Positions 29,645-33,194 of a stretch of DNA of 64,000 nt are shown here, piece by piece. The notes beneath the pieces were generated by a model. It saw only the letters and a program-made list of their open reading frames with translations, searched no databases and had not been told where the DNA came from. The DNA is from Lysobacter sp. M2-1. Lineage in GTDB: Bacteria; Pseudomonadota; Gammaproteobacteria; Xanthomonadales; Xanthomonadaceae. Numbering within the stretch: the first letter of the stretch is position 1; each line of letters opens with the position of its first letter. The position numbers and the translations under genes were made by a program. The stretch covers positions 62,001-126,000 of the forward strand of contig NZ_JAKPBU010000011.1 of assembly GCF_022662495.1 (NCBI RefSeq). The letters are read 5' to 3'.

Positions 29645-30355
29645 ATGAACAACCAGCCCCACGACCACATCGTCAAGAGCCATGACGAGGAACAGCAACG
29701 CCTGACCGGCGAGATCCTGCGCATGGGCGAGATGGCCTGCGCCCAGCTCAGTGCCGCCCTGGACGTGGTGGAACGACGCGACGACAAGGCGGCCGAGCGC
29801 ATCATCGCCAACGACGAGGCGATCGATGCGCTCGAGCGCGAGGTAAGTCACGACGTGATGCGCCTGGCCCTGCGCGGACCGCTGGCCGCGGACCTGCGGA
29901 TCATCCTGGCGGCGCTGCGCATCTCGGCCGACATCGAGCGCATCGGAGACTACGCGGCCAACGTGGCCAAGCGCTCGCTCACGCTCAACCGCACGCCACC
30001 GCTGCCGCATACCCGCGGCCTGCGCTCGCTCGGCGAATTGGCCCTGCAACAGGTGCGCGACGTACTGGTGGCGTATCGCGACCTGGACGACAACACCGCG
30101 CTGCGCGTACGCGCCCGGGATGCCGAGCTGGATGCGCAATACACCAGCCTGTTCCGCGAGCTGCTGACCTACATGATGGAGGATGCGCACAGCATCACGC
30201 CGTGCACGCACCTGCTGTTCATGGCCAAGAACCTCGAGCGGATCGGCGACCATGCCACCAACATCGCCGAAAACATTTGGTTCCGGCTGCACGGCGAACA
30301 GGTACTGCCGCCCCGGGAAAAGCGGGACGAATCCAATACCTTCGGGGTCGAATAA
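29645..30355 (+). CDS. phoU: Phosphate signalling regulator PhoU
   Basis: A 236-aa cytoplasmic protein that links PstSCAB to the PhoR/PhoB system and represses the Pho regulon when phosphate is plentiful. Two symmetrical three-helix bundles are visible by the repeated metal motif: ADIERIGDYAANVAKR in the first half and NLERIGDHATNIAENIWF in the second. It is last in the pst operon. PhoB and PhoR are not in the window. Confidence 0.97.
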   Translation: MNNQPHDHIVKSHDEEQQRLTGEILRMGEMACAQLSAALDVVERRDDKAAERIIANDEAIDALEREVSHDVMRLALRGPLAADLRIILAALRISADIERIGDYAANVAKRSLTLNRTPPLPHTRGLRSLGELALQQVRDVLVAYRDLDDNTALRVRARDAELDAQYTSLFRELLTYMMEDAHSITPCTHLLFMAKNLERIGDHATNIAENIWFRLHGEQVLPPREKRDESNTFGVE

Positions 30356-30469
30356 CGAACCCTTAAGGAAGGCCGAAACGCCAGCACTTCCGGCAGGGGC
30401 GCAGGTCCGGCCAAAGCGGTAGGATGCCCCTCCCAGCGGGCGCGGCGCCCGCCCCAGCGGAGCATACGC

Positions 30470-30832
30470 ATGAACAAGAAACCCCTCGCCCTCGTGGTTG
30501 CCGGTGGTCTGGTCCTGGCCGGCTCTTCCTTCGCTTTCAACGCCCTGGCCGGCGGTTACATGAATGCCCCCGGCGGGGAGAAAACCGCCGAAGGCAAGTG
30601 CGGCGAAGGCAAGTGCGGAATGGACAAGATGGACACCGACAAGGACGGCAAGATCTCCAAGGCCGAGTTCGCCGCCGCCCATGACGGCAAGGACGACCAG
30701 TTCGCGTCACACGACTCGAACGGCGACGGTTTCGTCGACGCCGACGAGATGAAGGCGCACATGGACGCCAAGGGCGACAAGGCCAAGATGGAAGGCAAGT
30801 GCGGCGAGGGCAAGTGCGGCGGCAGCGCCTGA
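30470..30832 (+). CDS. EF-hand protein with four EGKCG motifs: probable MNIO-modified RiPP precursor
   Basis: 120 aa. Residues 1-28 are a signal peptide (AGSSFAFNALAGG). Four EGKCG units follow as two adjacent pairs, at 41-50 and 108-117, with Cys44, 49, 111 and 116. Between them lie two canonical EF-hand loops: DTDKDGKISKAE (55-66) and DSNGDGFVDADE (82-93). EGKCG is the motif of Haemophilus HvfA-type precursors, whose Cys are modified by a DUF692 enzyme with a DUF2063 partner, and exactly those two genes follow. GGAG precedes ATG 30470. Calcium or copper binding and modification here are inference; an unmodified EF-hand protein is the alternative. Confidence 0.8.
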   Translation: MNKKPLALVVAGGLVLAGSSFAFNALAGGYMNAPGGEKTAEGKCGEGKCGMDKMDTDKDGKISKAEFAAAHDGKDDQFASHDSNGDGFVDADEMKAHMDAKGDKAKMEGKCGEGKCGGSA

Positions 30833-30847
30833 GCCCTTGCGACAGAC

Positions 30848-30876
30848 CGAACGCCCGCGCACCGCGCGGGCGTTCG
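30848..30876 (+). terminator. Strong hairpin between precursor and DUF692 gene
   Basis: A perfect 13-bp stem, CGAACGCCCGCGC / GCGCGGGCGTTCG, with a 3-nt loop lies 16 nt after the precursor stop. Only GTTT follows, so termination is likely partial. It could keep precursor mRNA in excess over enzyme mRNA. Confidence 0.6.
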
Positions 30877-30958
30877 CGTTTCCGGCGAGGCGCGGGCTCA
30901 CGCCCGCAGACCGCCGTCGCACCGGACATCGCCCCATGTTTGAGATAGCGTCACCGGC

Positions 30959-31783
30959 GTGAACGCCATCACGCCCGACAAGAGCGCCGGCCTGGGCCTG
31001 CGCCGCGCCCTGCTCGAACCGCTAGGACAAGCTGCGCCCGGCAGCATCGATTTCCTCGAGTGCGCGCCCGACAACTGGATCGGCGTGGGTGGAAAACTCG
31101 GCGCGGCACTGGAGGTGCTGGCCGCACGCCATCCGCTCACCTGCCACGGTCTCTCGCTGTCGCTCGGCGGCCCCGACCCGCTGGACCAGGAGTTCCTGCG
31201 CCGCACGCGCGAGTTCCTCGACCGTCATGACGTAAGTCTGTACAGCGAACATCTGAGCTATTGCACCGACGGCGGGCACCTCTACGACCTGATGCCGATT
31301 CCGTTCACCGAGGAAGCGGTGAAACACGTCTCTGCGCGCATCCGCCAGGCGCAGGACGCGCTCGGGCGTCGGATCGCGGTGGAGAACGTGAGCTATTACG
31401 CCGCTCCCTGGCAGGCGATGGACGAGGCGGACTTCATCAACGCCGTGCTCGAGGAAGCCGACTGCGACCTGCTGCTGGACGTCAACAACGTGTACGTCAA
31501 CAGCATCAACTTCGGCTACGACGCGCGCGATTTCCTGGCCAGGATGCCGGCATCGCGCATCGCCAGCTATCACATTGCCGGCCATTACGACCAGGCCGAG
31601 GATCTGAAGATCGATACCCACGGAACCGCTGTGAAGGACGACGTGTGGTCCCTGCTCGGCGACGCCTATCGCCTGCACGGAGTGCGTCCGACCCTGCTTG
31701 AACGCGACTTCCACTTTCCACCGCTTGCCGAGTTGCTGGCCGAAGTCGCCCGGATCCGCGAACTCCAGGCTGCGTCGCCGTGA
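30959..31783 (+). CDS. DUF692 multinuclear non-heme iron oxidase (MNIO; HvfB/BufB-like)
   Basis: A 274-aa TIM-barrel enzyme of the DUF692 family. Family motifs with likely iron ligands are ECAPDNW (34-40), CHGLSLSLG (His63), YSEHLSYC (His98), VENVSYY (Glu142), DVNNVYVN (174-181), HIAGH (205-209), DTHG (219-222) and LERDFHFP (Glu248). Studied members modify Cys in small peptides together with a DUF2063 protein. The start is GTG 30959, and the stop overlaps the next gene as GTGA. It has no signal peptide, so it acts in the cytoplasm before precursor export. Substrate assignment to the upstream EGKCG protein is inferred from adjacency and motif. Confidence 0.92.
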
Positions 31784-32526
31784 GCGAACTCGGTCGGCAG
31801 CTGCATGCTTTCGCCGCACACCTGCGCGATCCGGCGCGGAGTCCGCCGCCGGAGGGCATCGAAGACCGGCGGCTGGCGGTCTATCGCGACCTGTTCGCCA
31901 ACAACATACGCACCTTGCTTGCGGGCAATTTTCCGGTGATCCGCCGGACCCTCGCTGAGGACCGCTGGGCTGCGTTGGTGCACGACTTCTTCGCGGATTT
32001 TCGCAGCCACACGCCGCTGTTTCCGCAGATCGGCGAGGAATTCGTCCGCTACCTGCAGCAGCGGCAGCAGGCCGGCGCCGACGACCCGGCCTGGCTGGCC
32101 GAACTCGCCCATTACGAATGGATCGAACTGGCGCTGCAGATCTCCGCCACCACCGTGCCAGCTCACGACCCGCACGGAAACCTGCTGACTGGCATCCCGG
32201 TCGCCTCGCCGCTGGCCTGGCCGTTGGCCTATCGCTGGCCGGTGCATGCGATTGGGCCGGACCAGCTGCCTGATGAACCTCCGCCCGCGCCCACTCTGCT
32301 GCTGGTACGCCGAGGCGCCGACGGCGAGGTGCATTTTTCCGAACTCTCGCCGCTGGTCTACCGGTTGCTTGAATTGCTGGAAGAGGACGCTGCCCGCACG
32401 GGCGCGGAAACGCTGTCCCGGCTCGCCGAAGAAGCGCAGGCCGCCGATCGCGATGCATTCCTGCAGGAAGGCGCGGCGATGCTGGAGCGGTTGCGCGGCG
32501 AAGGCGTGCTCCTCGGCGTCCGGTAG
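31780..32526 (+). CDS. DUF2063 partner protein (HvfC/BufC-like)
   Basis: 248 aa. The N-terminal DUF2063 domain (often labelled putative DNA-binding) reads [20 protein letters not shown] and then [11 protein letters not shown] with [19 protein letters not shown]. The C-terminal half carries [17 protein letters not shown] and a winged-helix-like end. In studied systems this protein presents the precursor to the MNIO enzyme. It overlaps the DUF692 gene by 4 nt (GTGA). No DoxX-like fourth gene, often present in such operons, follows; the next gene is rnt. Confidence 0.9.
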
Positions 32527-32567
32527 CGCCCGCAAGTCAACTCGAACGGCTCTGCTAGGCTTGTTGC

Positions 32568-33194
32568 ATGGAAAATCTCCTCGCCACGCAAGCCGCGATC
32601 CGGCCGATGAAACAGCGCTTCCGCGGCTTCCTGCCGGTTGCGGTGGACGTGGAGACGGGGGGCTTCGACTGGAACCGGCATGCGCTGCTGGAAATCGCGG
32701 TGGTGCCGATCGACCTGGACGAGTCCGGGCGCTACGTGTGCGGTGAAACCGCCAGCGCGCACCTCGAGCCGGCGCCGGGCACCGAGATCGATCCGATCTC
32801 GCTGGAAGTGACCGGCATCCGCCTCGATCATCCGTTCCGCCTTGCCAAGCCCGAACGTGCGGCGCTGGACCATGTGTTCGCAGCGGTCCGCACGGCAGTG
32901 CGCAAGCACGAGTGCCAGCGCGCGATCCTGCTGGGGCATAACGCCCACTTCGATCTGAACTTCGTCAACGCTGCGGTCGCGCGCAGCGGTCACAAGCGCA
33001 ATCCGTTCCATCCCTTCAGCGTGTTCGATACGGTCTCGCTCGCCGGAGTCGCCTACGGGCAGACCGTGCTCGCGCGCGCCGTGCAGGCCTCGGGCGACAC
33101 CTGGAACAGCGACGAGGCGCATTCGGCGGTCTACGACGCGGAAAAAACCGCGCGGTTGTTCTGCACCATCGCCAACGCCTGGCCGGCGCCGTAA
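32568..33194 (+). CDS. rnt: Ribonuclease T
   Basis: A 208-aa DEDDh 3'-5' exoribonuclease that trims tRNA, 5S and 23S 3' ends. Catalytic motifs: VDVETGGFD (Asp, Glu), [11 protein letters not shown] (Asp) and [13 protein letters not shown] (His, Asp). The N-terminal [17 protein letters not shown] matches RNase T. The initiation region lacks a clear Shine-Dalgarno sequence; the Met at residue 14 is an alternative. It is convergent with the P1 peptidase gene. Confidence 0.95.

Follow-up and report, generated by a model that had tools for sequence, protein, structure and literature searches.

Introduction

Oxazolin production in nontypeable Haemophilus influenzae depends on the HvfABC system, in which an exported precursor with EGKCG motifs (HvfA) is followed by a multinuclear non-heme iron-dependent oxidative (MNIO) enzyme of the HvfB family and a partner of the HvfC family (PMC13419390). 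HvfA carries three AEGKCGEGKCG motifs, and no EF-hands are mentioned for it. HvfBC modifies HvfA poorly when the signal sequence is absent (PMC13419390), and the hvf operon also includes a DoxX-like gene, hvfX. Here, we describe an operon with the same gene order in Lysobacter sp. M2-1. It lies in a stretch of 64,000 nucleotides (contig NZ_JAKPBU010000011.1, positions 62,001 to 126,000 of the forward strand), which we call the window. The window operon resembles HvfABC in its predicted exported EGKCG precursor and in both enzyme families, but its precursor has four EGKCG motifs together with a pair of EF-hands, and the locus lacks hvfX.

Two other systems are close to this one. FonABC of Fontimonas thermophila, which makes fontiphorin, shares with the window operon EGKCG repeats, an MNIO of the Lys-Cys type and the Arg-Arg and Asp-Phe residues of that enzyme. 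FonA has seven 5-thiooxazole sites in its repeats, and the main text of the report mentions neither EF-hands nor calcium (PMC13097082). The same work describes 5-thiooxazoles and Cu binding in HvfA, FonA and NgoA, and gives a mass change of -8 Da for two FonA sites, implying -4 Da per Cys (PMC13097082). The bufferins (Buf1 and Buf2), known for Cu buffering, are Sec-exported, as is predicted here, and are encoded with an MNIO and a DUF2063 partner. They differ in having a BufB-family MNIO and a DUF2282 precursor domain, neither of which is found in the window operon.

EF-hands have also been described in this context. Antoine et al. (2025, PMC12452194) reported Buf_EGKCG|EF-hand_5 fusions (type 2) that begin with a signal peptide or membrane helix, as the window precursor probably does, and that share with it an EGKCG domain, two EF-hand_5 domains and MNIO and DUF2063 neighbors. 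The EF-hands of these fusions are described at the C-terminus, whereas the window precursor has a further EGKCG pair after its second EF-hand loop. In Pseudomonas aeruginosa, EfhP is encoded in an operon (PA4107-PA4105) that, as here, combines an EF-hand/EGKCG protein having two EF-hands with DUF692 and DUF2063 proteins (PMC4053335). EfhP binds Ca2+ with a micromolar Kd, loses binding when the Glu at loop position 12 is changed and is stabilized by Ca2+, which induces folding and exposes a hydrophobic surface (PMC9132961).

Results

An HvfABC-type operon with an EF-hand fusion precursor

The operon consists of three genes (coordinates are those of the window):

30470..30832, + strand: precursor gene, encoding an HvfA-like EGKCG/EF-hand protein of 120 aa (open reading frame [ORF] and family models)
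30959..31783, + strand: MNIO (DUF692) enzyme of the HvfB family, with a GTG start (PF05114, NF003818)
31780..32526, + strand: HvfC-type partner, DUF2063 plus NGO1945_C (NF050145, PDB 3dee)

An earlier note, made from the DNA sequence alone, had proposed a three-gene operon at 30436-32526 in which the DUF692 and DUF2063 genes overlap by 4 nt. The ORFs and family-model matches bear out both the operon and the overlap. The proposed end is also right, but the start was placed 34 nt ahead of the precursor ATG. The genome encodes a single MNIO and no second KCGExKCG protein above the curated cut-off.

The precursor is built from the following elements:

30470..30535, + strand: probable Sec signal peptide of 22 aa, cleaved after SFA (from its own sequence and from relatives, which have AFA, then M/V and LAQGY)
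30545..30559, + strand: LAGGY, the LxxGY motif that opens the mature protein
30590..30619, + strand: N-terminal EGKCGEGKCG, with Cys44 and Cys49 (sequence, NF050137)
30632..30667, + strand: EF-hand loop 1, DTDKDGKISKAE (PF13202, alignment)
30713..30748, + strand: EF-hand loop 2, DSNGDGFVDADE (PF13202, alignment)
30791..30820, + strand: C-terminal EGKCGEGKCG, residues 108-117, with Cys111 and Cys116 (sequence, NF050137)

The mature part is 98 residues long, and the order is signal peptide, LAGGY, EGKCGEGKCG, two EF-hands and EGKCGEGKCG. The N-terminus, MNKKPLALVVAGGLVLAGSSFA, is signal-peptide-like as judged by eye and is likewise conserved in relatives. LxxGY-like sequences occur in 76 of the 79 precursors compared below, a count that is slightly circular because the motif also helped to choose precursor starts; LxxGY is a possible recognition element. 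The four EGKCG motifs and their Cys residues lie where the note had placed them, and the KCGExKCG_twice model NF050137 matches the precursor with 33.3 bits (cut-off 19.5). The note had called the product a small metallopeptide and had missed two canonical EF-hands. PF13202 (EF-hand_5) matches two stretches above its cut-off (E 3.4e-10, 39.4 bits against 25.9), and the product is accordingly a fusion protein with EF-hands.

The enzymes place the operon in a described class. The MNIO matches PF05114 (E 1.3e-102), PDB 3bww (E 1.9e-69) and, with 429.8 bits, the HvfB model NF003818 (cut-off 360). Its partner matches DUF2063 (PF09836, E 2.6e-24), NGO1945_C (PF22106, E 1.1e-29), PDB 3dee (E 7.6e-9) and the HvfC model NF050145 (305.8 bits, cut-off 142). 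Membership of the bufferins was considered and rejected: the MNIO reached 270.4 bits with the BufB model NF050167, short of the cut-off of 310, and the precursor has no DUF2282 domain. Because the NCBIfam cut-offs for HvfB and HvfC are passed and that for BufB is not, we assign the operon to the known oxazolin/captophorin kind. This agrees with the note, which had compared the MNIO and DUF2063 genes with those of HvfABC and had proposed that their substrate is an exported EGKCG protein. The Cys-modified, Cu-binding product that it also proposed is likely, by analogy with systems that combine such enzymes with such a substrate.

In FonB, Arg15, Arg16, Asp249 and Phe250 govern the choice of Lys-Cys substrates (PMC13097082). 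These correspond to Arg15, Arg16, Asp250 and Phe251 of the window MNIO, matched by motif and position rather than to an aligned FonB sequence. The Arg-Arg pair is kept in all 78 MNIOs compared. A pattern search found ERDF in 69 of the 78 and ERDA in one; when the other eight were re-read, six had ERDF and two did not. The latter are the Xanthomonas enzymes of loci L044 and L080, in which Phe is replaced (ERDS and ERDG) and whose precursors lack EF-hands. These data bear on the possibility that the enzymes no longer modify the precursor, which would then be an unmodified, Cys-containing Ca2+-binding protein. In its favor, our literature search found no mass-spectrometric demonstration of an MNIO-modified EF-hand fusion. 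This explanation is nonetheless very improbable given intact enzymes, family-typical residues and the strong codon constraint on EGKCG described below.

Together, we think it probable that this HvfABC-type operon makes an exported, captophorin/oxazolin-like Cu-binding protein of an EF-hand fusion subtype, in which a Ca2+-folded core lies between modified Cys pairs.

The two-sided layout is widespread among relatives

Relatives came from a search of genome contigs for similarity to the MNIO only; the best 80 of at least 559 loci were taken, giving 81 loci with the window. Three precursors cut by contig ends (L022, L033 and L047) were dropped, and three precursor starts were set by hand. This left 79 intact precursors in 78 loci, including the window and a tandem pair from L023. 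An EGKCG-encoding ORF lies directly upstream of the MNIO gene on the same strand in all 80 related loci. The note had named relatives that keep the enzymes but have no Cys in the small protein as a finding that would refute its proposal; we looked for such loci and found none, each of the 80 having at least one EGKCG.

EGKCG motifs flank the EF-hands on both sides in 33 of the 79 precursors ("sandwich" precursors) and lie on the N-terminal side only in 30 (N-only); 15 have no EF-hands and one has a single C-terminal motif. Every sandwich holds at least four EGKCG-type motifs. Sandwiches come mostly from Pseudoxanthomonas, Thermomonas and unnamed Lysobacterales, N-only precursors mostly from Pseudomonas, and EF-less precursors mostly from Arenimonas-type bacteria and Xanthomonas. 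L029 (3592-3930) encodes the precursor with a lone C-terminal EGKCG and none before the EF-hands, together with MNIO and HvfC. At L023 (2949-3895), tandem sandwich precursors share one MNIO/HvfC pair, and the first has degenerate EGMCG and EGACG motifs.

We also surveyed the organism's own family, finding HvfB-type MNIOs (E <= 0.001) in 154 of 198 genomes and above the model cut-off in 136 of 198. The best 29 loci of this survey other than our own comprised 12 sandwiches and 17 precursors without EF-hands, with eight of the 29 duplicating precursors already counted above. A class-wide sample had the KCGExKCG signature in 98 of 369 genomes; its 30 best-scoring loci, a selection that favors repeat-rich precursors, included one sandwich (L120), the rest having no canonical EF-hand. 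In L136, masked or unknown bases fall within the EGKCG repeat gene. A literature search limited to running text found no description of EGKCG motifs flanking EF-hands on both sides, and such sequences may be present without comment in the data of Antoine et al. The sandwich is a real and widespread variant layout of a known system, and the published description of the fusions does not mention it.

EGKCG motifs and Ca2+ ligands are kept as protein sequence

EF-hand_5 matched all 33 sandwich precursors. When these were aligned, positions 1 and 12 were invariant in both loops, as was position 5 in loop 1, and only Asp, Asn or Ser occurred at position 3 of both loops and position 5 of loop 2. We then compared codons in 287 pairs of sandwich genes, which are not mutually independent. 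Differences were synonymous in 1417 of 1538 cases in EGKCG motifs and in 569 of 658 at EF-hand ligand positions 1, 3, 5 and 12, against 651 of 1993 elsewhere in the loops and 2380 of 8738 in the remainder. The mostly synonymous change in both sets of codons indicates that EGKCG and the Ca2+ ligands are kept as protein sequence. Spacing is also regular. In 60 of 63 precursors, 15 residues separate the two loops. All 30 N-only precursors have 7 residues between their last EGKCG and EF loop 1, whereas 26 of 32 sandwiches have 4 (and the remaining six have 5, 7, 7, 16, 16 and 23).

An AlphaFold2 model of the mature protein, built from 33 sequences, had a mean predicted local distance difference test (pLDDT) score of 60, with about 70-86 by block in the EF-hand pair and less than 50 in the EGKCG tails. 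The closest solved structures were polcalcin, calmodulin lobes and the designed, calmodulin-like AlleyCat proteins. VIA-align gave Z scores of up to 8.7 over 54 residues with a root mean square deviation of 1.5, a range that may reflect a common arrangement only.

These results can be set against the idea that the EF-hand pair serves as no more than a modular acidic spacer or a domain for stability, with the EGKCG pairs each acting alone and Ca2+ playing no role for Cu. Its absence from 15 of 79 precursors with close enzymes, its gain or loss at least four to five times on the trees described below and the disordered tails of the model would all fit such a spacer. A spacer would, however, have no need of ligand positions restricted to Asp, Asn or Ser, with Glu at position 12, in 33 of 33 sandwiches and changing mostly by synonymous codons, and both loops are kept along with their 15-residue gap. 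We regard this explanation as possible, though doubtful.

Several observations weigh against our own interpretation of a Ca2+-folded core between modified Cys pairs. The precursor scores 24.1 bits with the full-length HvfA equivalog model NF050188, under the cut-off of 95. The 15 EF-less precursors, encoded with close enzymes and often at the same address, indicate that the EF-hand pair is dispensable for the basic function, and the EF-hand precursor of L029 with its one EGKCG shows that four Cys are not always required. EF-hand labels in the codon comparison came from a pattern requiring Asp at position 1 and Glu at position 12, so the ligand count of 569 of 658 is partly circular at those two positions. 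The fixed spacings could reflect shared ancestry instead of function. Because both EGKCG tails are disordered, the AlphaFold2 model lends no support to a joint Cu site, and a Foldseek search returned nothing at E <= 0.001 (best E 0.03).

The operon kept its address while the precursor changed

In the MNIO tree, one branch with a support of 100 in the Shimodaira-Hasegawa-like approximate likelihood ratio test (SH-aLRT) separates an EfhP-like side (30 N-only precursors and two Lysobacter sandwiches) from a Xanthomonadaceae side (30 sandwiches, 15 precursors without EF-hands and one C-only). The presence of EF-hands requires at least five changes on this tree and four when HvfC is added, and the C-terminal motif requires three among EF-bearing rows on both trees. 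The two Lysobacter sandwiches, L032 and L046, fall in the EfhP-like clade on both trees (SH-aLRT 100 and 99) and have the 7-residue spacing; outside the ligands, the mean identity of their EF-hand pairs is 0.41 to N-only precursors versus 0.32 and 0.27 to other sandwiches. Independent origins of the sandwich were considered, but the approximately unbiased test does not reject a single origin (p 0.339 with MNIO alone, 0.265 with MNIO plus HvfC). As gain is, moreover, indistinguishable from loss, we do not claim convergence.

Two flanking genes lie outside the system:

29645..30355, + strand: phoU (PF01895)
32568..33194, + strand: ribonuclease T (TIGR01298, 303.6 bits, cut-off 246.2)

The end of phoU is 114 nt from the precursor ATG, and the stop of HvfC is 41 nt from the start of the ribonuclease T gene. 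On the Xanthomonadaceae side, phoU is upstream in 32 of 46 loci, ribonuclease T downstream in 44 and both are present in 30. Neither flank occurs in any of the 32 loci on the EfhP-like side. The kept flanks indicate that the operon did not move while the EF-hand pair of its precursor was gained or lost.

The tree also bears on whether the window protein could chiefly sense Ca2+ in the periplasm, the role proposed for EfhP, with modified Cys that sense Cu, Fe or redox state and do not store Cu. Deletion of efhP, in the same type of operon, alters many Ca2+ responses (PMC4053335, PMC11559002), and the authors of the mBio report note the four EGKCG repeats of EfhP and suggest metal sensing. The window protein is nevertheless not in the EfhP orthologue group: it lies on the opposite side of the SH-aLRT 100 branch, and its EF-hand pair has a mean identity outside the ligands of 17% to the N-only type and 54% to Xanthomonadaceae sandwiches. 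The relative from P. aeruginosa PA7 (L045) has all four EGKCG motifs before the EF-hands, the 7-residue spacing and an MNIO of the other clade. No conserved partner gene stands beside the operon here. In addition, binding studies of EfhP used protein made without its signal sequence (PMC9132961), a form expected to be poorly modified, so that these data do not test the modified protein. A sensor of this kind is therefore unlikely in our view.

Regulation and the precursor-MNIO spacer

Two further features lie outside the coding sequences:

30420..30425, + strand: -10-like hexamer TAGGAT, 50 nt before the precursor ATG
30849..30875, + strand: 12-bp perfect hairpin in the precursor-MNIO spacer (fold of the spacer)

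A TA[CG]NNT-like hexamer precedes the start by 30-75 nt in 28 of 34 sandwich or C-only precursors, against 1.9 expected from dinucleotide shuffles, and in none of the 30 N-only precursors. It is also found in loci with a sigma gene and so does not separate loci with and without one. A general scan found no consensus sigma-70 promoter within 30300-32700. CueR-like inverted repeats, the only such pattern sought, were not found upstream of the 30 precursors that have phoU within 900 nt.

A gene for an extracytoplasmic function (ECF) sigma factor, co-directional with the precursor and ending 26-295 nt before it, is present in 21 of the 81 loci, every one of them on the Xanthomonadaceae side; the one scanned matched TIGR02937 with 69.7 bits (cut-off 42.9). 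In L005 (2864-3403) and the 20 further loci, this gene lies between phoU and the precursor and leaves no room for an anti-sigma gene before the precursor. The linked ECF sigma factor is a candidate regulator of these operons that is absent from the window. Relatives' ECF sigma sequences gave nine matches (E <= 0.001) in the Lysobacter genome, on contigs C1, C2, C5 and C6 and none on C3; the best has 31% identity and is on a different contig from the operon. These matches accord with the note's remark that no sigma gene is nearby, a remark to be read with the limit that a general sigma scan of the window was not run. DoxX is found somewhere in the fetched stretch in 33 of 81 loci, including 11 of 15 EF-less loci versus 4 of 32 sandwich loci. 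At the window operon, no DoxX-like gene follows, as the note had said: ribonuclease T comes next, and the genome's four DoxX matches are on contigs C1 and C6. According to Antoine et al. (PMC12452194), sigma/anti-sigma genes occur in Buf1 but not Buf2 clusters, and the genes listed for EGKCG clusters are those for the ribosomally synthesized and post-translationally modified peptide (RiPP), MNIO, DUF2063 and DoxX. The note had described the operon as minimal and perhaps differently controlled. This holds for the window, where the operon has neither the linked ECF sigma gene nor a DoxX gene; with an ECF sigma in 21 and DoxX in 33 of the 81 loci, however, lineage variation appears to account for the minimal form.

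The spacer (30833-30958) folds with -66.8 kcal/mol (z -4.29 against dinucleotide shuffles). Its hairpin has no T-run, was not called by a terminator scan and is a possible stoichiometry element. Strong folding, from different sequences, is also seen in several relatives whose spacers are long. We rejected the hairpin as a conserved part of the system, as in many relatives the spacer is 6-24 nt long or folds weakly (assessed with single-base shuffles).

Discussion

We propose the following order of events for the window protein. HvfC would bind the signal peptide, which may act as the leader, and perhaps also the LxxGY motif of the unfolded precursor. HvfC and the MNIO would then turn Cys44, Cys49, Cys111 and Cys116 into 5-thiooxazoles while the protein is still in the cytoplasm, whose low Ca2+ would keep the EF-hand pair unfolded for modification and Sec export. 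After export, periplasmic Ca2+ would bind the EF-hand pair and fold it into a calmodulin-like lobe. One intact protein would thus bear two modified Cys pairs that flank the lobe and hold Cu. The present data establish the gene order, the motif anatomy, the families of the enzymes, the codon constraint on EGKCG and Ca2+ ligands and the spread of the layout, whereas the modification chemistry, the leader role of the signal peptide and the binding of Cu and Ca2+ are carried over from studied relatives. The proposed coupling of Ca2+ folding to the holding of Cu has no direct precedent.

The first helix of an EF-hand lobe begins on the side away from the loops, which is also where the last helix ends. 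The bracketed design could therefore bring the modified pairs near each other. More speculatively, the protein may have a Ca2+-organized copper site, in which the thiooxazole pairs meet only once periplasmic Ca2+ has folded the lobe, so that Ca2+ would control when and where Cu is held; we offer this idea tentatively and hold it to be improbable.

Antoine et al. (PMC12452194) raise the possibility that Cu and Ca2+ are connected through EF-hand fusions, but only in broad terms. According to the authors of the captophorin study, Cu binding by EGKCG products seems to be stochastic and accompanied by aggregation, and it is unclear whether the mature form is a single polypeptide or a set of cut peptides (PMC13097082). 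With 98 residues and only two EGKCG pairs around a single EF-hand lobe, the mature protein offers a compact natural test case for the order of Cu binding as well as for the intactness of the product. If it stays whole, binds Ca2+ and holds Cu in an ordered way, both questions would be answered. If the Ca2+-organized site is real, loose and aggregating Cu binding would give way to an ordered site, and RiPP copper chemistry would be gated by a calmodulin-like domain. A link between Cu and Ca2+ would also bear on EfhP, for which the published binding studies used signal-less protein.

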